Source: Acidaminococcus sp. | GTDB lineage: Bacteria; Bacillota; Negativicutes; Acidaminococcales; Acidaminococcaceae | Reading direction: 5' to 3' | Assembly (NCBI GenBank): GCA_022482815.1 | Contig: JAKVOM010000001.1 | Span: forward strand, 434,001-498,000 | Length of the DNA: 64,000 bases | Shown here: positions 34,574 through 51,977 of the stretch, one piece after another | How the letters are laid out: every line of letters starts with the position of its first letter | Position numbering within the stretch: position 1 is the stretch's first letter | Notes under the pieces: model-generated | Seen by the model: the letters and a program-made list of their open reading frames with translations, nothing else | Database searches by the model: none | What the model was told of the DNA's origin: nothing | Position numbers and translations under genes: made by a program

Positions 34574-37507
34574 ATGTTGATGGAGCAACCAAAAAGGACA
34601 GGTATTGTTTTGTCTGTACTTCTTGCGGTCTATGGGATAAGTGCCGTACAAATGCCAAGAGCAGAAGCTGTTGACGTGGCGGACACTAGCAGCGTAACGT
34701 GGCGAACGCAGGATGCAGCAGACGGAACGTATAATTTCAGCGACGGACTGAGCTTTTCTTTTGAAGGGGACAATACAAAAGGCGGGGTTTATGTAGTAAG
34801 CCCTAAGAATAATGCCTCCAGTAACCGAGTACTGAATGCGCTTGATGACTTAACGATTTCGCAGAAAAATCAACGTACGTATAACCTGAGTGCCGGAGCT
34901 TTCGTAAACGGCTATCTGCCGGGTTTTGATGAATTCACGCCGGCGCACCTGACTTTTAAAGGAAAAACCGTTCATTTAAATGGTTCTTATGAGGGAACCC
35001 CAACACTATTTGCTTCCCAAGAAGTTTACGGAGCCAGTGTTGAGGGTGAATTTTTTTCCTCGACTGATACTGAAAATACCCGCAGAGCTACCCTGGATTT
35101 CAATAACAGTGATACCTACCTCAGTGCTTCTTATAATCCAACCGAAAAAATTGCAAACGGATCATCAGTTGCCGGTTTATATGTGCGGGGCACTGCCGCT
35201 GCTACTTTTAATGGGAATGCCTATATTTCAGCTGCTATGAATGAAAATGCCGATATAGACAGCGGAGCGGCTGTTAAAGTCTGGGCCGGCAGTGCTACTT
35301 TCAATGGCTATACAACAGAGCTTACTGCTGCGAATGACTATAACGGGGACCGCGATGAAAGTGCTGTTTACGGCGTATACCTGCAAGGTCATTACAATGG
35401 TTCTCCCGTCTCCTTCACTCCTTATGATGAAGTAATTTTCAACAGTCCCAACACCTCTATCACAGTCAATGGTACGGAAAGCGCTGCAGCCCGAGGCATC
35501 TATGCGCATATTGGCAATGTAAAAATATCGAATCAGGTAAAACAGTTTACGCTAACAGCAGATTCCGGCAGCAACGCTTCTGACGTGTATGGTTTATATG
35601 CCTGGAATCATGGCACGATTACATCGGACGCCAAAACAGCAAATATTTCTGTATCCACGAAAAATGACAGTACATCGTATGTTGACAACAGTGCAGCCTA
35701 TGTTTATGCCAACGGTCATATTGCTATTAATGGATCGGAACTCAACTTGTCTGCCCAGGGCGGGAAAAGCAGCGCAGCCGTTTACGCCTGGGGTTCTCCG
35801 TCTAACCTGGAAGCCGAAGACGATTCCATAACCCTGACAAAAGGCAATACCATTGATCTTAACGCCGATAGCATGACCCTTACCGCGACAGATAAAAACG
35901 GCGCGCCTTCCTTTGCTGCCATAGCACAGGCTGACAAGGACTGGGCAGTCATCAACATTAACAGCGACAATGACGGCAATGCCCAGGGAAAAACACTTAA
36001 GGCAACAGGCAATGTCTACGTCTCGGGCGGCAGTGAAGAAGATGCGTATGCCACAATCAATATGAATCTGTCCGATACCGATTCCTTCCTCCGCGGCTGG
36101 ATGGACTATAAAAACAACACAGGAACAGGGACGTTAAACCTCGGTGTGGAAAATGGCAGCACCTGGTATATGACGGATAGTTCCAAAGTCACCAACCTAA
36201 AAGTCAGTGACGGCGGTGTTGTTGATATGCGTGCCGATAATGGTGCCTACAGCACCGTCCAAGCCAATACTCTTTCCGGCAGCGGCGGTATCTTCAAGGA
36301 AGATGTCGATGTCCGCAGCATGGAAGCAGACCGCATCTACGTGCCCGGTAATTTCAGCGGCACACAGGCCCTCGATATCTACCAAAAAGACAACTACGTA
36401 CCGGAAACGAACTCGTCGGAAGGCAATGGTCTTGTTCTTGCTACGGTAAACGGCGACGGCACCTTTACCGCCAGGGACCGTGAAGGGACGCTGTTCTACA
36501 CGCATTATGACCTGGCTCATAAAGACAGCGATACGGAAGGATACGAAACAGACTGGTACCTCAACCGCATTTATCAGGTCAATCCGGAAGTAAAGCCCAC
36601 CCCGACCGTCGACGAATCAACGGCATCCTACGGTCTCGCTTACTATACCTGGCGTACTGAAATCGATAAGCTCCTGCAGCGCATGGGCGAACTCCGCCAC
36701 AACGGCGAAGACGAAAAAGGTCTTTGGGTCCGCGTCAAGGGCAGCAAAATCGGTCATAATGGCAAATTCGGTTTTGAAAACAAGTATCAGCATTACGAAA
36801 TCGGTTATGACGATGTCGTAAAAAAAGAAAAAGACCTGACCCGTTACCAGGGCGTCTCCTTCAGCTACGTGGACGGCGACGGCACCTACCATAACGGTTC
36901 GGGCAGCAGCCACGGCGGCGCTCTCTCCTGCTACAGCACGGATATCCGCAGTAAGGGACACTATCTCGACCTCGTCTTTAAGATTGGCCACTACAATACG
37001 GATTACACAACCTATACGGGAAGCGGCGAAAAAGTCCGCGGTGACTTTGACAATACCGGTGTTTCCTTAAGCGCCGAATACGGACGCAAAAAGATGCTTT
37101 CTGACGACGGCTGGTACATCGAACCGCAGACCCAGTTCTCCCTGGGCTACTTCGGCGGGGACAGCTATACAACCTCGAATGGTGTCCAGGTCCGGCAGGA
37201 CGGCATCAAGAGTGCCATCGGCCGCGTCGGCTTTAACCTCGGCAAGGATCTCGGCCCGAAGAGTAAAGTCTACTTCAAGGCTAACTGGTACCACGACTTT
37301 GCCGGAAACGGCGGCATCACGCTGACTGACCCCGAAGGCCGCGCTCACATCGACAGAGACTATGGGGATACCTGGTTCACGTATGGCATCGGCACTGCCT
37401 TCCGGATGAGCAAGAACAGCCACTTCTACTGCGACGTGGAGCGCAGCACCGGCAGCAGCTTCCACACGAACTGGCAGTGGAACGTCGGCATGAGAATGAA
37501 CTTCTAA
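34574..37507 (+). CDS. Autotransporter outer membrane protein 3
   Basis: This 977-residue protein has a signal peptide of about 32 residues ending MPRAEA. The passenger is about 650 residues of beta-helix, rich in Asn, Thr, Ser and Tyr (for example TATFNGNAYIS and VKISNQVKQFTLTADSGS). The linker TASYGLAYYTWRTEIDKLLQRMGELR is followed by a C-terminal barrel (about residues 715-977) that ends WNVGMRMNF. The GELR...GLWVR module aligns with GELR...GVWAR of autotransporters 1 and 2, but overall similarity is low. The function of the passenger is unknown; adhesion is the usual role. Confidence 0.92.
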   Translation: MLMEQPKRTGIVLSVLLAVYGISAVQMPRAEAVDVADTSSVTWRTQDAADGTYNFSDGLSFSFEGDNTKGGVYVVSPKNNASSNRVLNALDDLTISQKNQRTYNLSAGAFVNGYLPGFDEFTPAHLTFKGKTVHLNGSYEGTPTLFASQEVYGASVEGEFFSSTDTENTRRATLDFNNSDTYLSASYNPTEKIANGSSVAGLYVRGTAAATFNGNAYISAAMNENADIDSGAAVKVWAGSATFNGYTTELTAANDYNGDRDESAVYGVYLQGHYNGSPVSFTPYDEVIFNSPNTSITVNGTESAAARGIYAHIGNVKISNQVKQFTLTADSGSNASDVYGLYAWNHGTITSDAKTANISVSTKNDSTSYVDNSAAYVYANGHIAINGSELNLSAQGGKSSAAVYAWGSPSNLEAEDDSITLTKGNTIDLNADSMTLTATDKNGAPSFAAIAQADKDWAVININSDNDGNAQGKTLKATGNVYVSGGSEEDAYATINMNLSDTDSFLRGWMDYKNNTGTGTLNLGVENGSTWYMTDSSKVTNLKVSDGGVVDMRADNGAYSTVQANTLSGSGGIFKEDVDVRSMEADRIYVPGNFSGTQALDIYQKDNYVPETNSSEGNGLVLATVNGDGTFTARDREGTLFYTHYDLAHKDSDTEGYETDWYLNRIYQVNPEVKPTPTVDESTASYGLAYYTWRTEIDKLLQRMGELRHNGEDEKGLWVRVKGSKIGHNGKFGFENKYQHYEIGYDDVVKKEKDLTRYQGVSFSYVDGDGTYHNGSGSSHGGALSCYSTDIRSKGHYLDLVFKIGHYNTDYTTYTGSGEKVRGDFDNTGVSLSAEYGRKKMLSDDGWYIEPQTQFSLGYFGGDSYTTSNGVQVRQDGIKSAIGRVGFNLGKDLGPKSKVYFKANWYHDFAGNGGITLTDPEGRAHIDRDYGDTWFTYGIGTAFRMSKNSHFYCDVERSTGSSFHTNWQWNVGMRMNF

Positions 37508-37867: not shown

Positions 37868-38953
37868 ATGATTCAGCATATTGGAGCCGCTATTTTGGCA
37901 GGAGGGCAGTCTTCCCGGATGCATACCAGTAAAGCTGATTTGTACTATGAAGGGAACTCTTTTTTGAGACGCACCTTAAGAACGATTCCTCCTTACCCGG
38001 AAACTCTGCTTTCAGTGCGTGACTCCGATGATTTTGCCGACCTTGGGATACCCACAGTTCCGGACTTGATTCCAGACTGCGGACCTGCGGGCGGGATCTA
38101 CTCCATTCTATCAGCTTGTCAGTCGGACTGGATGGTTATTCTCAGTTGTGACATGCCCCTCCTCAAAAGAGAGTTAATCGAATATCTGACAGCTTTCGTT
38201 TCCTCTGATTATGATGCCTGCGTCATGAAAGACCGCAGCGGCCGAGTTCATCCGCTGTGTGCCGTTTACGCCAAATCATGTCTTCCTGTTTTTCAAAAAG
38301 CATTGGAAAGCAAGACTTATAAGCTTCAGACGATTCTGGACCATCTGCGCGTTAAATACGTGCCGCTTGAATTCAGCGCTTTTGCAGATTCGATGTTAAG
38401 CAACGTCAACACACCTGAAGAATACCGTGCTCTCCCCCGCCGGCCAGTGATTGTCGCCGTTTGCGGGAAAAAGAATTCCGGAAAAACAACACTGCTCGAG
38501 AGTATCCTTCCTTATCTCTGCAGGGAAGGGCTGCAGATAGCCGCAATCAAGCACGATGGACATGATTTTGTTCCTGATGTTCCCGGTACGGACAGCTACC
38601 GACTGCGGCAAGCAGGGGCTCATGCAGTGGGAATCTTTTCATCCAGACAATGCCTGAGTTACTCTTATGCAGAAGGGACAACATTCGAAACCCTGATCGA
38701 GCAGTTCCAGAAGCACGATTTAATCCTGCTTGAAGGCGGCAAAACTACGGACTATCCCAAGATTGAAATTGTCCGGAAAGAAATTTCTCTTTCTCCTCTC
38801 CCCAATATTACGAACCGGATTGCCATTTGCACTGATCTTCCACTTAAAGGCCAAAATGTACCGCTGCTGCCCGTCAACAATCCGAAGAGTGTAGCTGCCT
38901 TTCTACTTTCGTACGTAGAAAAATGCCGAGCGGAAGATTTTCACACTTTTTGA
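37868..38953 (+). CDS. MobA-MobB fusion, molybdenum cofactor guanylyltransferase
   Basis: This 361-residue two-domain protein has a MobA part (about residues 1-190) that starts AAILAGGQSSRMHTSKADL and contains PDCGPAGGIYSIL and LSCDMPLL; it would transfer GMP to Mo-molybdopterin. The MobB part (about residues 195-361) opens PVIVAVCGKKNSGKTTLL with a P-loop and has AAIKHDGHDF. Fusion of the two is known in several bacteria. It supports a bis-MGD cofactor, as used by the DMSO reductase family enzyme encoded on the opposite strand. It converges on mogA. Confidence 0.93.
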   Translation: MIQHIGAAILAGGQSSRMHTSKADLYYEGNSFLRRTLRTIPPYPETLLSVRDSDDFADLGIPTVPDLIPDCGPAGGIYSILSACQSDWMVILSCDMPLLKRELIEYLTAFVSSDYDACVMKDRSGRVHPLCAVYAKSCLPVFQKALESKTYKLQTILDHLRVKYVPLEFSAFADSMLSNVNTPEEYRALPRRPVIVAVCGKKNSGKTTLLESILPYLCREGLQIAAIKHDGHDFVPDVPGTDSYRLRQAGAHAVGIFSSRQCLSYSYAEGTTFETLIEQFQKHDLILLEGGKTTDYPKIEIVRKEISLSPLPNITNRIAICTDLPLKGQNVPLLPVNNPKSVAAFLLSYVEKCRAEDFHTF

Positions 38954-42738: not shown

Positions 42739-44988
42739 TTATTCATTGATTGTCTTTACAACGTGATAATATTCATCCGGGCCTTCAGGTTTGAAGTGAG
42801 CCGGCGGATCAGCCGGGTATACTTTTGCTAAAAAGCCGCCGCGCAGACCTACGACGCCCTGCTCCCGGTCAAGGTTCCAGTCGTCATCCGGAATAATCAG
42901 GCCATCGTTGCACTCCATTGCCCCGGAAAAAGCGGTTTCGGGGCCGCCCGGCAGTTCCGGGAACCACCATCCGTGCGGTACTCTGATGGTACCAACCGGT
43001 TCGCCCGGATCCGATTTAACCATAGCCTTCAGCCTTCCGGCCACACTTTCAACCCAAATCCACTGATGGTTCTTCAATCCATATTTAGCTACGTCATCCG
43101 GATGCAGGAATACTTCCGGCCAGGGCTGCTTCTTTCTCAGCGACGGAATCTGGCGCAGGTTGGTCAGATAATTAAAGCCATCACGAATACCGACAAAAAC
43201 TTCCAGCGGATATTCTTTTTTGATAGGCCCGGTTGCTCTCTGGGACTGTTCCGGTTCACGGTAATAAGGGAGCGGGTCGTACCCCAGCCATTTGAGAGCA
43301 GTACTGTACAGTTCAATCTTGCCGGTCGGTGTGGCAAAGCCATTTTCCGTTGCCAATGGATCGATTGTCCTGGATGGAGGAATAACGTGCTGTTTTGAAA
43401 TTTCCTTGAATGTCTTTCCTGTCTTCCGGATTCTCCAATCGATAACTTCTTCAAAGTCCTTCCACGGGAAGTATTTACCTAAGCCCATCCGATCAGCAAG
43501 GCCCTTGATAACAAAGTACTGGTGCTTAACTTCTCCCACCGGCTTCAGCACCTGCTGCTGCGTAATCGCACTGGGTGTATGATCCAGTTGTCGGAAACCA
43601 ATTCTTTCAAGGTAATAATCAGAAGGCAGCACATAATCCGCCAATTGTGCCGTCGGTGTCATCCAGTGGTCAAAAACAACAATGAGGTCCAAATTCATAA
43701 GACCCTCATAGATACCATTCTGGTTGCAGTAACTCATCAGTGTATTGGTACCAGAATTGAACAAGGCCTTAATGGGATAAGGCTTTCCCGTCCGCATAGC
43801 CCGGAACGTAGCCGGAGGATTAGCCATGAAGCTGGCCAGCAAGTTATAATACTCCAGACCATAGACACGCTTATTCGGCTCCTTAAAAGGTTCATACCCT
43901 TTGTAGGAAAACAGCGGATATTCCTCCGTACCCAGCAGTTTACTCTGCTGCTCGGGAGAAAGCAAATCATACCGTTCGATATTGGAAACAGGTTCGATAT
44001 CCGGGTCATAGTGACTCAGGATTTCACTCTTATTGAGATAACCACAAACACTCATCAAAATATCCTGCAGGCGAATCAGTGACGTGGAGTTAACCTGCAT
44101 ATCAGGAATCGGACCCCATGGAATGATGCTGGGGCCTTCCGTAGCATACATCCGGGCCGCCTTGGCAATATCTTCAGCCTTACATTCGGTAATCTCGGCC
44201 ACCCGTTCCAGCGGATATTCGTCGGCACGTTTTTTGAGTTCGTCAAAACCATAGCAATATTTCTCCACAAAGGCTTTGTCGTACAGTCCTTCATTCAGAA
44301 TAACGTTCAAAAAGCCCAGCAGCATGGCTGCATCTGTGCCAAAGCGCAGGCGCAGGTGGATGTCGGCATCCCTTGCGTTAATGGAAGGACGAGGATCAAG
44401 CACAATCAATTTAGCCCCTCGTGCCCTTGCCTTTTTTAATTTTGCATATTCACCGGCCCAGTTATTCGGATGAGGATTATGACCGACCAAAAGAATGCAA
44501 TTTGCTTTTGCATAATTTTCCATAATATGGGTGCCATAAGTCAGCCGATGGACCTGCAGGGTATTTCCAAGGCACAAATGCTGTCCGGTAATCCAGTTCG
44601 GCGTCCCGATGACGTTGGCAAAGCGGCGCCACATACCCTGCTGCCGTCCCTGGTTCGTTTCCGTCCCCGAAAAGACAATGGATTCTGCCCCATATTTCTT
44701 CTTAATATCCATCATTTTCTGAGCGATTTCATCCAAGGCCTGGTCCCAGGAAATCCGCTCCCACTTTTGTTCGCCGCGATTGGAACCGACATTTTTCAAA
44801 GGATGAATGATGCGCGATGGATTATGAATATACTCATTCCAATAACGAACTTTGGAGCAAATGGCGGACGGATCGGGAACACCGCGCAGCCGAATCAGCT
44901 TACCGTCCTCGAGATCTGCTTCCAGCGTGCAGTCATTGTCACAGACTTTGCAGACAAGATGCTTGGTTTCATACTTTTTCTCTCCCAT
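42739..44988 (-). CDS. Molybdopterin-dependent oxidoreductase (DMSO reductase family), substrate unknown
   Basis: This 749-residue cytoplasmic-type protein has no Tat signal. The N-terminal 4Fe-4S motif has cysteines 13, 16, 20 and 44 (CX2CX3CX23C). Conserved blocks for bis-MGD binding follow (IVFSGTETNQGR, LLVGHNPHPNNW, LIVLDPRPSINARDADIHL, NSGTNTL). Cys139 in GQHLCLGN lies where family members carry the metal ligand, so a Cys-ligated Mo or W is likely. The C-terminal MopB domain holds HPDDVAKYGLKNHQWIWVES. No iron-sulfur or membrane partner is nearby. Candidate relatives include acetylene hydratase-like and other single-subunit members. The whole cofactor operon follows it. Confidence 0.9.
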   Translation of the reverse strand: MGEKKYETKHLVCKVCDNDCTLEADLEDGKLIRLRGVPDPSAICSKVRYWNEYIHNPSRIIHPLKNVGSNRGEQKWERISWDQALDEIAQKMMDIKKKYGAESIVFSGTETNQGRQQGMWRRFANVIGTPNWITGQHLCLGNTLQVHRLTYGTHIMENYAKANCILLVGHNPHPNNWAGEYAKLKKARARGAKLIVLDPRPSINARDADIHLRLRFGTDAAMLLGFLNVILNEGLYDKAFVEKYCYGFDELKKRADEYPLERVAEITECKAEDIAKAARMYATEGPSIIPWGPIPDMQVNSTSLIRLQDILMSVCGYLNKSEILSHYDPDIEPVSNIERYDLLSPEQQSKLLGTEEYPLFSYKGYEPFKEPNKRVYGLEYYNLLASFMANPPATFRAMRTGKPYPIKALFNSGTNTLMSYCNQNGIYEGLMNLDLIVVFDHWMTPTAQLADYVLPSDYYLERIGFRQLDHTPSAITQQQVLKPVGEVKHQYFVIKGLADRMGLGKYFPWKDFEEVIDWRIRKTGKTFKEISKQHVIPPSRTIDPLATENGFATPTGKIELYSTALKWLGYDPLPYYREPEQSQRATGPIKKEYPLEVFVGIRDGFNYLTNLRQIPSLRKKQPWPEVFLHPDDVAKYGLKNHQWIWVESVAGRLKAMVKSDPGEPVGTIRVPHGWWFPELPGGPETAFSGAMECNDGLIIPDDDWNLDREQGVVGLRGGFLAKVYPADPPAHFKPEGPDEYYHVVKTINE

Positions 44989-45405: not shown

Positions 45406-46140
45406 ATGGAAAAAGATAACGAAAGTAAAAGCTTGGATACGATGTTCGCTCCCCTGCCAAAAGGGAATATTTCCGATATCATCAAAGAGCGCATCACCGA
45501 TGCCATCTTAAATGGTGAACTCAAACCCGGTGACAAGCTGCCAACAGAAGTAGAGTTCAGTGAAAAACTCCACGTCGGCCGCAATGCCGTTCGGGAAGCC
45601 ATCAAAGTACTGGTTGCTTTCGGTGTTCTTGAAATCCGCCGTTCAGAGGGAACGTTTGTTGTAAAAGAATTCAAGCCAAAATTGATTGATCCATTGTTAT
45701 ATGGACTGGCACTCTCGAAAAAATCGCAGGAAGAGTTTCTTGAATTCAAGATTGCCTTGTTCTGCTCCATCCTTTACATCCTGAGCTTGAATGCTACAGA
45801 GGATGACCTTAAGCAGCTGGAGCAATACTGCGAAACCTTCAGAAAAGCCATGAATAATCCTCAAGTCTCCCTTGAGGAAAAATACAAGGCTTGTCTTGAC
45901 TACCAAACTTTTTTAGGCCAGGCTACGCACAATCCCATGGTAATGGAACTTAATTCCATTAATATCAAGATTTGTGATTTCCATCGCCGTCTTATGATCA
46001 GGAGATCTCTTGAGCAAGGCAAACCCAACGCTTTGCCTGACTCCTACATCAAGGATATTAAGATGGTGCGGGCTCACGACCGCGCAGCAATTCCCAAACT
46101 GCTTGACGAAAAGCTGGCTATGTGGAGAACGCTGGAATAA
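45406..46140 (+). CDS. GntR/FadR-family transcriptional regulator
   Basis: This 244-residue protein has a winged helix at about residues 20-88 with LPTEVEFSEKLHVGRNAVREAIKVLVAFGVLEIRRSEGTFV. A helical FCD ligand-binding domain follows (about 105-235), with FLEFKIALFCSILYILSLNA near its start. FadR-type regulators respond to small carboxylates. It is divergent from the molybdoenzyme operon and upstream of the Mo transport genes, so it probably links their expression to the enzyme's substrate or product. Confidence 0.92.
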   Translation: MEKDNESKSLDTMFAPLPKGNISDIIKERITDAILNGELKPGDKLPTEVEFSEKLHVGRNAVREAIKVLVAFGVLEIRRSEGTFVVKEFKPKLIDPLLYGLALSKKSQEEFLEFKIALFCSILYILSLNATEDDLKQLEQYCETFRKAMNNPQVSLEEKYKACLDYQTFLGQATHNPMVMELNSINIKICDFHRRLMIRRSLEQGKPNALPDSYIKDIKMVRAHDRAAIPKLLDEKLAMWRTLE

Positions 46141-46195
46141 CAATTTTACAGATTAAGTTCCACAATCACTGACGAATATTCATTTTTTCCTTATA

Positions 46196-46345
46196 GATTG
46201 CTCCGAGCAAAAGTATCTAAGGGACGCTGTTGGTCCTATGACACTGCGCCGAGCTGCCGTTAAAACAGCTCCGGAGTCGTTTTGGAAACGAAGCGGCTTT
46301 CCTTTTCACGAGAAGGAGTCATACAAAGGACGATGGGAAAAGTAT
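46196..46345 (+). ncRNA. Candidate molybdenum cofactor (Moco) riboswitch
   Basis: The segment contains CTCCGAGCAAAAGT, hairpin GGAC-GCTGTTG-GTCC, CCTATGACA, hairpin GAGCTGCCGTTAAAACAGCTC, the closing CGGAG, hairpin TCGTTTTGGAAACGA, GCGGCTT, a CCTTTTCACGAGAAGG hairpin and GACGATGGGAA. The order of helices and the GACGATGGGAA end recall the Moco RNA motif, which senses the cofactor upstream of Mo genes. The genes downstream are a MoeA-like protein and modABC, and a terminator lies between. A covariance-model search would settle the family. Confidence 0.68.
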
Positions 46346-46373
46346 ATTCCTGTAATTGTGCACCTTTATGAAT

Positions 46374-46402
46374 GACTGCCCTCTCGGGCAGTCTATTTTT
46401 TT
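46374..46402 (+). terminator. Terminator between the riboswitch candidate and its gene
   Basis: The perfect 8-bp stem GACTGCCC/GGGCAGTC with a TCTC loop is followed by TATTTTTTT. It lies 40 bp before the MoeA-like coding start. It could be a ligand-controlled attenuator, or simply end the regulator transcript. Confidence 0.8.
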
Positions 46403-46443
46403 ACAATCAATCCAGTTGCAATAAGGTAAGGAGGTACAATTTT

Positions 46444-47463
46444 ATGAAATTGATTCCTACAGAGGAAGCTGTGGGGCACATTCTCTGCCATGATTTAACG
46501 CAGATTATCCGGGGAGAATTCAAGGGACCACGTTTTCGTAAGGGCCATGTTGTCACAAAGGAGGATATTCCTGTCCTCCTTTCCATGGGTAAGGAACGCC
46601 TTTACGTATGGGAAGTGACGCCTGATATGATTCACGAAGACGACGCGGCAAAGCGGCTTGCTGCCCTTTGTGGACACAAGAATATGAAGTGGAGTGAGCC
46701 CAAAGAGGGAAAGATAGAAATAAAGGCTGCCTGCGACGGCTTCTTCCGTGTCGCTTCGCAGCGCCTGATCCAGGTCAACTCTTCTCCGGAAGCCATGATT
46801 GCCACCCGCAAGGGAAACACGGCAGTCCGTGCCGGTCAAAAGCTGGCAGGAACCCGTATTATTCCCCTTGCCATCAAGGAAGAGCTCTTAAAAAACATTG
46901 AAGCAGCAGCCGGGACATCTCCGTTGCTTGAAGTTTTGCCTTTTGTGAAGAAAACGGCCGTCATCATCGCTACAGGCAATGAGGTACTGAAGGGACGTAT
47001 CAAGGATACTTTCTCCCCCGTTGTGAAAGAAAAGCTCGAGGCCTACGGTATCCGTACCTTATCCGTTCTCTACTCCGGCGATGGAGCGGATAACGTAGCG
47101 GCCTATATTAAAAAAGCAAAAGAACTGAATCCTGATATCGTGATTTGCACCGGCGGTATGAGCGTCGACCCCGATGATACGACTCCGGCCGGAATCAGAA
47201 AATCCGGGGCTGAAATTATCACTTACGGCGCTCCGGTGCTTCCGGGTGCTATGTTCCTCCTCGCATACGCTAAAGACGGTACTCCCATTCTGGGGCTGCC
47301 GGGCTGCGTCATGTTCGCCAATGCCACTATTTTTGATTTAGTGCTTCCGTATATCGCCGCAGATGTCCCGATGACGAAAACTGATTTTGCAGCGATGGGT
47401 GAAGGAGGACTTTGTCTGGGCTGCCCGGTATGCCACTATCCAATCTGCCCATTTGGAAAATAA
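46444..47463 (+). CDS. MoeA-like molybdopterin-binding protein with cysteine-rich tail
   Basis: The protein has 339 residues; the ATG at 46444 follows AAGGAGG. The N-terminal half resembles the MoeA N-terminal region (AVGHILCHDLTQIIRGEFKGPRFRKGHVV). The MoCF domain has VIIATGNEVLKGRIKDTF, ICTGGMSVDPDDTTPAGI and LGLPGCVMFANATIFDLVLP. The MoeA domain IV is missing. Instead, the last 16 residues hold four cysteines (324, 327, 330 and 335; CX2CX2CX4C), likely to bind a metal or an Fe-S cluster. It lies upstream of modABC, so it may sense or deliver molybdopterin or molybdate. Confidence 0.85.
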   Translation: MKLIPTEEAVGHILCHDLTQIIRGEFKGPRFRKGHVVTKEDIPVLLSMGKERLYVWEVTPDMIHEDDAAKRLAALCGHKNMKWSEPKEGKIEIKAACDGFFRVASQRLIQVNSSPEAMIATRKGNTAVRAGQKLAGTRIIPLAIKEELLKNIEAAAGTSPLLEVLPFVKKTAVIIATGNEVLKGRIKDTFSPVVKEKLEAYGIRTLSVLYSGDGADNVAAYIKKAKELNPDIVICTGGMSVDPDDTTPAGIRKSGAEIITYGAPVLPGAMFLLAYAKDGTPILGLPGCVMFANATIFDLVLPYIAADVPMTKTDFAAMGEGGLCLGCPVCHYPICPFGK

Positions 47464-47495: not shown

Positions 47496-48326
47496 ATGAA
47501 AAAGCAATTAGGAATTTCATTACTGTTAGGAGCACTCGCACTCTGCACAGCCTGCGGCAGTAATCAGACAGCACAAAAACCGGCAGCCAAAAAGCCGGTT
47601 GAGCTCAACATTTTTGCCGCGGCTTCCATGACGGAAAGCCTGCAGGATATCCAGAAAAAGTATGAAGCTGCCACTCCCGGCGTAAAGCTGGTACTGACGC
47701 TCGATTCATCCGGAGAACTGAAACGTCAGATTGAATCCGGAGCCGCCTGTGATGTCTTTATCTCGGCCTCTCCGAAACAGATGAATCAGTTGGATAAAGA
47801 AGCAGATCCTAAGCTCAACCCGAAACATCTTGATTTTATCGATCATGCAACTCGTAAAAACTTCCTTGAAAACAAAGTTGTTCTTTCTGTTCCCAAGGGA
47901 AATCCGAAACAAATCAAGAATTTCGATGACCTCATCAAGCGCCTGCCTTCCGGCAGTCTGAAGCTGGCTATCGGGAACCAGGATGTTCCTGTCGGTCAAT
48001 ATACCCAAAAGATTTTTGCCTATTACAAACTGAATCCGTCTGATATCGAATCTTCCTTATCCTATGGTTCCAATGTAAAAGAAGTAACTACACAGGTTAA
48101 AGAAGCACTGGTCGATGCGGGTATCATTTACGGAACAGATGCTGCCGCCGCCAAGCTCCAGGTTATCGACCAGGCAACGCCGGAAATGTGCGGTCAGGTC
48201 ATCTATCCTGTCGCCGTATTGAAAAACAGTGCTCATGCTAAAGAAGCCAAAGCATTTGTTGATTTTCTCAGCTCCGAGGACGCTCAAAAAATCTTCAAGG
48301 AAAAGGGGTTCGCTCCCATTAAATAG
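47496..48326 (+). CDS. modA: Molybdate ABC transporter substrate-binding lipoprotein ModA
   Basis: This 276-residue protein has a lipoprotein signal with the modified Cys near residue 20 (ALCTACGSN). The mature protein shows ModA motifs: LNIFAAASMTESLQDIQKKYE, LTLDSSGELKRQIESGAACDVFISAS and AIGNQDVPVGQYTQ. It captures molybdate or tungstate outside the inner membrane. It starts 32 bp after the MoeA-like gene with AAGGAGA, so both are under the same leader. Confidence 0.94.
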   Translation: MKKQLGISLLLGALALCTACGSNQTAQKPAAKKPVELNIFAAASMTESLQDIQKKYEAATPGVKLVLTLDSSGELKRQIESGAACDVFISASPKQMNQLDKEADPKLNPKHLDFIDHATRKNFLENKVVLSVPKGNPKQIKNFDDLIKRLPSGSLKLAIGNQDVPVGQYTQKIFAYYKLNPSDIESSLSYGSNVKEVTTQVKEALVDAGIIYGTDAAAAKLQVIDQATPEMCGQVIYPVAVLKNSAHAKEAKAFVDFLSSEDAQKIFKEKGFAPIK

Positions 48327-48339
48327 GAGGCTTTGACCT

Positions 48340-49023
48340 ATGGATTGGTACCCTCTTCTCAATTCTCTCAGAATTGCCCTCATATCCACGGTCATTGTCT
48401 TCTTTGCCGGCATTGCCTCCGCGCATTATGTTTCCCGATTTCCCCGTTTGATCAAAGGAATCATAGACATCATATTTACCCTCCCTCTGGTGCTTCCGCC
48501 TACCGTAGTGGGCTGGCTCATTCTTCTGGTACTCGGTCCCAGACACGTCGTAGGCGCTTGGTTCCTTGAACATACGGGACTTCGTCTGGTCATGCAGTGG
48601 TGGTCAGCCATCTTTGCTACCGTAGTCGTTTCTTTTCCCTTGATGTACCGGACAGCCCGCGGTGCTTTTGAAAGTTTCGACGAGACATTATCCGATGCAG
48701 GAAAAACATTGGGACGTTCCGGTACATGGATATTCTGGCACGTCAAAATGCCTTTTTGCCGGCAGGGACTTCTGGCCGGAACCGTACTTGCTTTTGCCCG
48801 TGCTTTAGGCGAGTACGGAGCCACATCCATGGTTGCCGGATACACGCCGGGCCGAACGGCCACAATTTCAACCACGGTCTATCAGCTTTGGCTCATCGAC
48901 AATGACCAGGGCGCATTACAATGGGTTCTGATCAACATTTTTCTTTCATCGATATTTTTGCTCTCCATCAATCTGCTGGAACGGCGTCAGCGTGAAGTCA
49001 GAAAGCGGGGGCTGTCAAAATGA
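48340..49023 (+). CDS. modB: Molybdate ABC transporter permease ModB
   Basis: This 227-residue inner-membrane permease has five or six hydrophobic helices. It carries the coupling motif EYGATSMVAGYTPGRTATIS (about residues 150-169) and LPLVLPPTVVGWLIL, characteristic of ModB. AGGAGG precedes the ATG. The final codons overlap modC by 4 bp. Confidence 0.94.
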   Translation: MDWYPLLNSLRIALISTVIVFFAGIASAHYVSRFPRLIKGIIDIIFTLPLVLPPTVVGWLILLVLGPRHVVGAWFLEHTGLRLVMQWWSAIFATVVVSFPLMYRTARGAFESFDETLSDAGKTLGRSGTWIFWHVKMPFCRQGLLAGTVLAFARALGEYGATSMVAGYTPGRTATISTTVYQLWLIDNDQGALQWVLINIFLSSIFLLSINLLERRQREVRKRGLSK

Positions 49024-50066
49024 GCCTATCTGTAGATATCAAACTCCGGCTCGGTGCTTTTCATCTTGCCGTACAATTTGAAACTACGCAGGGTCCCCTT
49101 GCCCTTTTAGGCGCTTCCGGGTGCGGCAAGTCAATTACACTGCGCTGTATTGCCGGCATTATGACCCCCGACGAAGGGCGAATTCTCCTGGATGGGACTC
49201 CCCTTTTTGACTCAAAGGCAGGAATCAATATTCCTCCCCAAAAACGTCACATCGGGTATCTTTTTCAGCAGTATGCCCTGTTCCCCACGATGACGGTGGA
49301 AGAAAATATCGCTGCAGCCATTTTCAGCAAGAAAGAACAAAAAGAACGGATTCCGCAGCTTTTGGAACAATTTCAACTGACGAAAGAAGCAAAGAAAAAG
49401 CCGTGGCAATTATCCGGAGGTCAGCAGCAGCGTACGGCCCTGGCCCGCATTTTTGCTTCCCGCCCGCAGGCTTTGCTGCTTGATGAACCCTTTTCAGCAC
49501 TTGATTCTTACCTTCGCGGACAAGTCGAAAGCCAACTTTTTGAGACGCTGCAGAACTATTCCGGAAGTGTCATCTGGGTTTCTCATGACTTACGTGAAGT
49601 CTACAGAAACTGCCCGGAAGTATGCGTTATCGACCAGGGGCAGTCACAGCCGCAGTGTACCTTACCGGATCTGTTAAAAAATCCGCAAACCACGGCAGCG
49701 GCAAAACTCTCGGGCTGCCAAAATATTGCGAAAGCTGAATATGAAAACGGGAAAATTAAATTGCCTGAGTGGGGTATCACTCTGCAAGGGAATAAGCGCT
49801 GGGCTCCATCGGTTCATTTTATCGGCTTCAGGGCTGAGCATCTGTATCCTGCCGAAAGTCCAGATGATAACAATACATTTTCCTGTCAAATCCTGCGCAT
49901 TATCCGCGATATTGGAAAAGTTACCTATCAATTAAAACCGCTGACAGCCGGGCCGGAAGCGCGTCCTCTGCAAATGGATCTTTCCGATACACAAAAACAA
50001 GATTACCAAACAGGGGATATCCTGAAAGTTGCGGTAAACACCGAAAATTTGCTGCTTCTCCAGTGA
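49020..50066 (+). CDS. modC: Molybdate ABC transporter ATP-binding protein ModC
   Basis: This 348-residue ATPase has Walker A GASGCGKS (residues 32-39), signature LSGGQQQRTALAR (about 126-138), Walker B ALLLDEPFSALD and the H-loop in VIWVSHDLREV. A C-terminal TOBE/regulatory region of about 110 residues is typical of ModC. It is the last gene of the import operon. An insertion sequence begins 23 bp after its stop, so its original terminator may have been displaced. Confidence 0.94.
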   Translation: MSLSVDIKLRLGAFHLAVQFETTQGPLALLGASGCGKSITLRCIAGIMTPDEGRILLDGTPLFDSKAGINIPPQKRHIGYLFQQYALFPTMTVEENIAAAIFSKKEQKERIPQLLEQFQLTKEAKKKPWQLSGGQQQRTALARIFASRPQALLLDEPFSALDSYLRGQVESQLFETLQNYSGSVIWVSHDLREVYRNCPEVCVIDQGQSQPQCTLPDLLKNPQTTAAAKLSGCQNIAKAEYENGKIKLPEWGITLQGNKRWAPSVHFIGFRAEHLYPAESPDDNNTFSCQILRIIRDIGKVTYQLKPLTAGPEARPLQMDLSDTQKQDYQTGDILKVAVNTENLLLLQ

Positions 50067-50089: not shown

Positions 50090-51977
50090 GGGGCTGTCGC
50101 AAGTGACCGATTTTTAATCCCTGAAATAACTTGCTAAAGGCCCCAAATTGCCTTACTTTTTAGTTGAATATGTTTTGAGATGAAAAAAGGGCGCACGAAA
50201 TTAAGCAACCCTAAGTTGCTTTTTTCGAGCGCTCTTTTTGTATCTTTTAGGCCTCTTTTTTCAGCGGATACAAGTGCAAATCCTCTTTGCCGTCTTGAAC
50301 TTTGTGATGGACCTTCAGGACATTCCGTGCCATGGCACATATTCCCACTGTTACCAGGGCATTTCCTTTGCCTCGGGTTTCTAATCTTCTGACGTTTAAT
50401 GAATCCTTGAGATCCGCAAAGGCTCCTTCTGCCTGTATACTGCGGTTCATCCTCAGTTCCTTACCATATTCGGAAGTAATGTTCTTCAGGGATTCTGCCC
50501 TCAGTGCAGCAAAATTCTTCGAGACCACTAATTTCTTGTTTCTTTTCTCCATGGGTGTCCTGCAATTGTTCCCATGGATGCACTGTTCCTTGTAGGGACA
50601 ACCGCTGCAGTCCTTACATTCGTAATATGTTTTCTCTGACACATATCCTGACCGGTTCTTTACCTGGGTTACTTTGCTGACTTTCAGCAGTCTCCTGCCT
50701 TTACAGATATACATGTCTTGATCAGGCAAATATGTCATGTTTTCTGCTTTGCCGATGTCGTTCTTATACTTTTTCCTCTTGCTTCTTTCATAATTGTTAG
50801 GCTTGATATATGAAGTATACTGATTCTTCTTCAGCCAGACCAAGTTCTCTTCGCTTTCATAGCCTGCATCGGCTACAATGTTTGCAAATTTCTGACCGAA
50901 GTGGGCTTCAAATCCTTCAAGAAAAGGAATGAGTGTCCGCATGTCTGTTGGATGTGCACTTACATCTGCAAACAAGGTAAAACCGGAATTGTTTGCATAT
51001 TGGACATTGTATCCCGGCTTTAAGGCGCCATTAAGCATGGCGTCTTCTTTCATCCTCATAAAGGTAGCATCCGGGTCTGTTTTGGCAAAGCTGTTCCGTT
51101 CCCCACAGATATGAAGCTGCTTCGTATACACCTTAAGCCGTTTGAGATAGTTAGCTAAAATCTCATAGTACTTCTGTAGGATGGTCTTTCTTTTCCCACA
51201 TCCGTGAACAAACTCGATTCCCTCAGCCCGCTTTATGACAAGCAGTTTTTTTAGGAGCTTCTTTAAATGACGGATGTGGAAAGTGTTTCCGTAACAGACC
51301 TTGATTCCGAAACGTTCCTCGATTTCGGGAACCAGTTGCTCCAGTTTCTCTATGAGTTTGTTCTGGCTGCCTAAGACTCTGTTTTTCCAAACAAATTTGT
51401 ATTTGTTTGCCACAGATTCAATTTTTGTCCCATCGATGAACAGGCTATCCAGCGTGATGAACCCGCGAGCCAGCAGCCATTTATCCATCTGAATCATGAG
51501 CTCCTTGATACATGGTTTTAGATGGAGGGAACAAAATCTTGCAATGGTTGCATTATCCGGAGCTTTTTTCCCATCTAAGAGGAACATGAAATGAGTGTCT
51601 CTTTTACAGGATTGCTCTATCTTACGCGAACCACGAATTCCTTCCATACATGCATAAATGACGATTTCCAGCAGCTGAATTGGTGACGTTAATTTATTCT
51701 CGACATGAGAATACGTGTCATACAATGCCTTTACATCCATCCCTTCTACCATGGCACGCACCAAGCGAACAGGATCGTCATTAGGGATTTGTACTTCAAA
51801 ATTTAGAGGAAGAAAAAGTTGATAAGAACTGCCAATTTTTGTATAATCCTTTTGTGTAGGTTTCTTTTTTGGCATATTTAAATTCTACACCAAGGCGCGG
51901 TCTCATTCAATGAGGCCGCGCCTTGCTTTTACCTTGTTTTTGATACAAAAGGGGCCGTCGCAAAATGCGACAGCCCC
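50090..51977 (-). mobile_element. IS1182-like insertion sequence, copy A
   Basis: The ends GGGGCTGTCGCA (50090-50101) and TGCGACAGCCCC (51966-51977) are perfect 12-bp inverted repeats, extended by the flanks AAAC and GTTT, so the target may have been palindromic. The single transposase gene is intact. Both internal flanks carry hairpins: a terminator past the transposase stop (about 50186-50240) and AAGGCGCGG/CCGCGCCTT with CTCATT/AATGAG (about 51893-51925) before its start, which would shield it from outside transcription. A second hairpin, GGGGCCGTCGCA/TGCGACAGCCCC, forms at the right end. Confidence 0.9.
50247..51875 (-). CDS. IS1182-family transposase, copy A
   Basis: This 542-residue DDE transposase has an N-terminal DUF772-like region (YQLFLPLNFEVQIPNDDPVRLVRAMVEGMD, IYACMEGIRGSRKIEQSC). 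The catalytic acidic residues are probably in LDSLFIDGTKIES (about residues 139-151), NIVADAGYESEENL (about 333) and a later Glu in SIQAEGAFADLKD (about 490). CKDCSGCPYKEQC is a zinc-like Cys cluster of the family. It differs from copy B at only a few residues (MPKKKPT against MQKNKPT at the start; IKELM against IKKLM). No SD is seen before its ATG, which suggests low translation. Confidence 0.93.
   Translation of the reverse strand: MPKKKPTQKDYTKIGSSYQLFLPLNFEVQIPNDDPVRLVRAMVEGMDVKALYDTYSHVENKLTSPIQLLEIVIYACMEGIRGSRKIEQSCKRDTHFMFLLDGKKAPDNATIARFCSLHLKPCIKELMIQMDKWLLARGFITLDSLFIDGTKIESVANKYKFVWKNRVLGSQNKLIEKLEQLVPEIEERFGIKVCYGNTFHIRHLKKLLKKLLVIKRAEGIEFVHGCGKRKTILQKYYEILANYLKRLKVYTKQLHICGERNSFAKTDPDATFMRMKEDAMLNGALKPGYNVQYANNSGFTLFADVSAHPTDMRTLIPFLEGFEAHFGQKFANIVADAGYESEENLVWLKKNQYTSYIKPNNYERSKRKKYKNDIGKAENMTYLPDQDMYICKGRRLLKVSKVTQVKNRSGYVSEKTYYECKDCSGCPYKEQCIHGNNCRTPMEKRNKKLVVSKNFAALRAESLKNITSEYGKELRMNRSIQAEGAFADLKDSLNVRRLETRGKGNALVTVGICAMARNVLKVHHKVQDGKEDLHLYPLKKEA

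Follow-up and report, generated by a model that had tools for sequence, protein, structure and literature searches.

A Moco/Tuco-class riboswitch preceding a MoeA-like gene and modABC in Acidaminococcus, with probable control by transcription termination

Introduction

In the 64,000-nucleotide stretch of Acidaminococcus sp. DNA analyzed here (the window), a leader lies between a GntR/FadR-type regulator gene and a MoeA-like gene followed by modABC. The initial annotation had proposed a Moco riboswitch at this position, which raises the questions of whether the leader belongs to that RNA class, how it would act on the genes behind it, and which metal it would serve. The class, RF01055 (Molybdenum/Tungsten riboswitch, or "Moco RNA motif"), was described in 2008 with terminators after some members, an association with mod genes, and OFF behavior in Escherichia coli; direct ligand binding was lacking from that paper, Moco being unstable (Regulski et al. 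2008, PMC2408646). A helix termed P3 separates Moco-type from Tuco-type RNAs, and a proposed rule assigns P3-bearing RNAs to molybdenum and P3-less RNAs to tungsten (PMC2408646).

The leader contains a full-length RF01055 aptamer

The covariance search suggested in the initial annotation bore out the riboswitch call. Using cmscan, a single complete match to RF01055 (model positions 1-135) was obtained with a score of 60.0 bits, 24 bits above the gathering score of 36 bits, and with an E value of 6.8e-12 as computed for the 64-kb window. It was the only RF01055 match in the 3.06-Mb genome; this and all other genome-wide statements are outcomes of family searches. Whereas the riboswitch had been placed within positions 46196-46402, the left edge required revision, as the aptamer begins 7 nt earlier (Table 1). 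Judged by sequence and covariance model, the leader element is confirmed as a real Moco/Tuco-class riboswitch.

The RNA shares with its class the helices P1 to P5, including a P3 of six pairs (GAGCUG/CAGCUC), an intrinsic terminator, and a position upstream of molybdate transport genes, here the MoeA-like gene and modABC. A GNRA tetraloop in P4 (GGAAAC) is matched by a receptor in P2 (CUAAG...UAUG), the closing pair of which carries a compensatory change from C-G to U-A. The RF01055 alignment also revealed departures from the class, as the base of P2 contains several mismatches and is partly unpaired, and the AGGG segment between P3 and P4 is altered. Given the P2-base mismatches, a weakened aptamer is possible.

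Table 1. Coordinates of features in the window
Feature	Position	Strand	Basis or description
Autotransporter, 977 aa, just outside Moco island	34574-37507	+	PF03797 beta-domain, pertactin-like passenger
Fused mobA-mobB gene	37868-38953
Acetylene-hydratase-like enzyme	42739-44988	-	genome's only PF00384 protein; phmmer to 2e7z, 787.7 bits
GntR/FadR-type regulator, outside conserved unit	45406-46140	+	PF00392, 63 bits; PF07729 (FCD), 20.5 bits, just under cut-off
Moco/Tuco riboswitch aptamer (RF01055)	46189-46334	+	cmscan, 60 bits, full length
CUCCGAGC, P1 5' strand and conserved junction entry	46201-46208	+	same as RF01055 consensus (alignment)
P3 hairpin, GAGCUG-loop-CAGCUC	46250-46272	+	RF01055 alignment and sequence
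P4 end loop, GGAAAC with GAAA tetraloop	46283-46290	+	RF01055 alignment
GAGAAGGAGUCAU, 3' strand of P5/P1, potential antiterminator strand	46310-46322	+	RNA folding
AUGACUGCCCUCUC, antiterminator partner overlapping terminator 5' arm and loop	46372-46385	+	RNA folding
Intrinsic terminator, 8-bp stem, tetraloop, and U-tract	46374-46404 (hairpin 46374-46393)	+	-15.8 kcal/mol
Shine-Dalgarno sequence, AAGGAGG	about 46429-46435	+	sequence
MoeA-like protein, 339 aa	46444-47463	+	PF00994 molybdopterin-binding domain; no MoeA_N/MoeA_C
modA, molybdate-type substrate-binding protein	47496-48326	+	TIGR01256, 131 bits (cut-off 62.5)
modB, molybdate-type permease	48340-49023	+	TIGR02141, 195 bits (cut-off 182.6)
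modC-like ATPase	49020-50066	+	PF00005; TIGR02142, 172.6 bits, under cut-off of 285
DDE transposase, edge of Moco gene island	50247-51875	-

An intrinsic terminator separates the aptamer from the MoeA-like start codon

As had been described from the sequence, a perfect terminator and then a ribosome-binding site follow the aptamer. The terminator, located 40 nt beyond the aptamer, consists of an 8-bp hairpin (GACTGCCC-TCTC-GGGCAGTC) followed by TATTTTTTTA; its folding energy was equalled by none of 2,000 dinucleotide shuffles, and when the 175-nt downstream leader was shuffled 400 times, a comparable terminator appeared in 0.5% of cases. The start codon is assigned to the ATG at 46444, as homologues start at the same methionine. 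A longer frame opening at ATG 46372 is unlikely to represent the start, since homologues begin at the second methionine.

We considered whether the terminator merely ends the gntR transcript behind a real aptamer, with the MoeA-like-modABC genes relying on their own promoter downstream of the terminator. A terminator behind gntR would be expected in any case, and just 48 nt, in which no promoter-like site was found, separate the end of the gntR reading frame from the aptamer. This arrangement is nevertheless improbable, because it leaves unexplained both the full-length aptamer in the interval and the overlap of P1 pairing with the terminator arm. Moreover, the distance from terminator to ATG is only 50 nt, and a search of this segment likewise returned no promoter-like site; across the region, five such sites were counted vs 4.3 in shuffles, which is no enrichment. 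Finally, the order of aptamer, terminator, and MoeA-like gene recurs elsewhere, and a FadR-type regulator was found beside the MoeA-like/mod operon at none of 87 related loci (E 1e-10).

Folding predicts an antiterminator that excludes P1

The initial annotation had also posited a built-in attenuator, and RNA folding supplied a plausible one, in that the 3' strand of P1 can pair with the 5' arm of the terminator. When the transcript was folded to position 46386, with the terminator 3' arm still absent, the minimum-energy structure was an antiterminator in which GAGAAGGAGUCAU pairs with AUGACUGCCCUCUC. Because this helix uses the P1 3' strand together with the terminator 5' arm and loop, P1 and the antiterminator are mutually exclusive. 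For the segment 46189-46404, forcing the antiterminator gave a best-fold energy of -70.2 kcal/mol vs -64.3 kcal/mol with P1 and the terminator forced, so that the antiterminator is favored without ligand; neither ligand binding nor tertiary contacts enter into these energies. The duplex between 46308-46330 and 46360-46386 (-20.8 kcal/mol) was matched by 0.06 to 0.16% of shuffles, with the segments having been picked after the fold was seen. Shuffle P values were 0.046 to 0.072 for the 13/14-nt core and 0.062 when segments were chosen automatically. The expression platform thus comprises a terminator with an overlapping antiterminator of moderate statistical standing, and we regard the pairing as likely to occur in this leader.

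Taken with the class assignment, these features make it very probable that the leader is a riboswitch of the Moco/Tuco class, one that regulates the MoeA-like-modABC operon through transcription termination and is OFF when cofactor is bound. In the model, bound cofactor would let P1 retain GGAG(U) at 46315-46319, leaving the terminator 5' arm free, so that the terminator hairpin could form and RNA polymerase would stop. Without cofactor, the two antiterminator strands would pair, no terminator would form, and the importer would be made. The riboswitch would thereby probably halt transcription of the molybdate/tungstate import genes when cofactor is plentiful. Family membership, the terminator, the exclusive pairings in folding, and the recurrence of aptamer, terminator, and MoeA-like gene in that order in other bacteria were demonstrated; the ligand is presumably a metal-pterin cofactor, its binding would be expected to favor P1, and the outcome of the switch would accordingly be predicted as OFF.

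Still less probable than a separate promoter is a switch of reversed (ON) polarity, or one acting on translation rather than termination. Some Moco RNAs do regulate translation with a ribosome-binding site hidden in P1 (PMC2408646), and modA leaders of relatives resemble this translational type. In the window, however, the ribosome-binding site lies about 110 nt past P1 with a strong terminator intervening, and control by sequestration of that site was rejected on account of this distance. The antiterminator furthermore uses the P1 strand itself, such that P1, once formed, releases the terminator, as expected of an OFF switch. The comparison with the E. coli Moco RNA, an OFF switch (PMC2408646), follows the same lines: the moaA riboswitch shares the aptamer class and the expected OFF logic through P1, although its ribosome-binding site is hidden in P1 for translational control, whereas the readout in the window is a terminator.

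Leaders of relatives carry two types of readout

RF01055 was present in 18 of 120 relatives searched. Where a riboswitch lies immediately ahead of a MoeA-like homologue, a strong terminator was found in 10 of 11 leaders vs 2.5 to 11% of shuffled leaders (the threshold of -13 kcal/mol was reached by 2.5% of shuffles and -8 kcal/mol by 11%), which supports the termination model. Between riboswitch and modA, a terminator was present in one of seven leaders; in the other six, the aptamer end ran into the start codon. Four leaders (L022 and L014 from the same class, L118 and L125 from Flavonifractor) resemble the window in their succession of aptamer, terminator, and MoeA-like gene, but differ in that moeA/moa genes come after the MoeA-like gene in those genomes.

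Among the 10 terminator-bearing leaders, an antiterminator was supported besides the window only in L022, where a comparably long pairing of unrelated sequence was obtained (P = 0.022), and, as a borderline case, in L118 (P = 0.05). The antiterminator as a general feature of these leaders was dropped, the automatic test being significant in only a few.

In Flavonifractor (L115, L118, L123, L125, L141, and L146), one gene cluster contains two Moco riboswitches that differ in readout. The leader of the MoeA-like gene is of the termination type; the second aptamer, of the translation type, ends at the modA start codon.

The controlled genes include a conserved MoeA-like family

Domain and family matches upheld the gene assignments of the initial annotation for the GntR regulator, the MoeA-like protein, and ModA, ModB, and ModC. 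The leader departs from the RF01055 class in the first gene behind it, whose MoeA-like product ends in a cysteine motif (C-terminal CxxCxxCxxPxCxFG) that was invariant in 16 aligned sequences. Across 61 genomes (this one and relatives), the gene occurred in 21 of the 23 that have MoaC and in none of the remainder, if weak matches to other PF00994 proteins are disregarded. MoaE (PF02391) went unrecognized in this genome, in 59 of the 61 genomes, and in 43 of 50 other carriers of the MoeA-like gene, while weak but genuine-looking matches of 26 to 37 bits were obtained in 7 of the 50 carriers and 2 of the 61 genomes. Because matches in this range occur elsewhere, a divergent MoaE below threshold could exist in the present genome. 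The gene distribution suggests that the MoeA-like family adds a step to cofactor synthesis or takes the place of one; replacement of MoaE in particular is not pressed, as divergent MoaE proteins lie near the detection limit. The first gene under the switch belongs to a conserved family with a four-cysteine tail, a candidate for an as yet unassigned molybdopterin-synthesis step, for which a role in cofactor synthesis is testable.

Two-level control by the riboswitch and the FadR-type regulator, which the initial annotation had envisaged, found no support, given the absence of the regulator from all 87 related loci and its divergent orientation to the acetylene-hydratase-like gene. That enzyme gene would be our guess for the more natural and simpler target of the regulator than modABC; the enzyme is encoded near only 1 of the 87 MoeA-like loci, with 26% identity. 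The search having returned no promoter-like site between the gntR gene and the aptamer, transcripts of gntR may extend into the riboswitch leader.

The only molybdopterin enzyme detected is of the acetylene hydratase type

The initial annotation assumed molybdenum as the metal, whereas the one molybdopterin enzyme detected belongs to the acetylene hydratase type. The match to 2e7z covers residues 9-725, with the next match at 198 bits (phmmer). In the alignment, CKVCDNDC corresponds to CQSCDINC and LCLGNT to MCIGNT, and the protein keeps the cluster cysteines, the metal-binding cysteine (Cys141), and Asp13, a residue that is subfamily specific in acetylene hydratase (PMC12096430). Acetylene hydratase is described as the one member of its superfamily with an obligate tungsten requirement (PMC12096430). 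No match in the genome was obtained to PF02730 (aldehyde ferredoxin oxidoreductase) or PF02738 (xanthine dehydrogenase family), which leaves this protein as the sole molybdopterin enzyme within the three families searched (PF00384, PF02730, and PF02738).

In having a tungsten-type enzyme as its sole detected pterin enzyme despite the presence of P3, the genome differs from what is described for the RF01055 class. The locus may be an exception to the P3 rule, or the enzyme may use molybdenum. That a P3-containing, Moco-type riboswitch senses a tungsten cofactor here is a tentative proposal of fairly low probability; if true, it would run counter to the published rule, in which P3 denotes molybdenum sensing. 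As the enzyme's subfamily has an obligately tungsten-dependent characterized member, the combination of one riboswitch with one detectable molybdopterin enzyme offers an unusually clean test case for that rule. In other respects the riboswitch is an ordinary addition to its class and nothing new in kind, because the 2008 paper had already reported the class, its terminators, and its link to mod genes (PMC2408646); the resemblance of the only Mo/W enzyme found to a tungsten enzyme is the single unusual point.

Surroundings of the locus and riboswitches in other genomes

Beyond the acetylene-hydratase-like gene lie moeA, moaC, moaA, a MOSC protein gene, and mogA, and the DDE transposase gene directly follows modC. 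The MoeA-like protein has its closest relatives in Oscillospiraceae (65 to 73% identity), with a best value of 59% within its own class; in a tree, the window protein was placed within a clade of Oscillospiraceae (support, 0.956), well removed from the proteins of its own family. The first genomes searched in that clade have a moaA-moaC-MoeA-like-modABC-mogA arrangement without RF01055, so that the riboswitch either arrived by another route or was lost in the clade. Least probable of all is a decayed or nonfunctional riboswitch that accompanied horizontally acquired Moco genes, for although the P2-base mismatches, this tree placement and nearby transposase, and the absence of RF01055 from eight same-genus genomes and every same-family genome listed among the 120 relatives would fit decay, the score exceeds the cut-off by 24 bits, the junction sequences are intact, the receptor pair is compensated, the terminator and antiterminator are intact, and all downstream genes are open.

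One locus near the window in the MoeA-like tree (L041, Oscillibacter sp. MAG) belongs to a genome that has a Moco riboswitch at a different site (L113, positions 1059-924, minus strand), which contains P3, a clear terminator, and a strong antiterminator. The gene behind it encodes a small membrane protein of about 186 aa that had no match in Pfam or NCBIfam; it looks like the S component of an ECF transporter and may be a transporter, not yet described, for a cofactor or metal. In G080, a genome of the same class as the window, eleven RF01055 matches were counted (e.g., L013, L021, and L030), two of which overlap or adjoin each other on contig C21.
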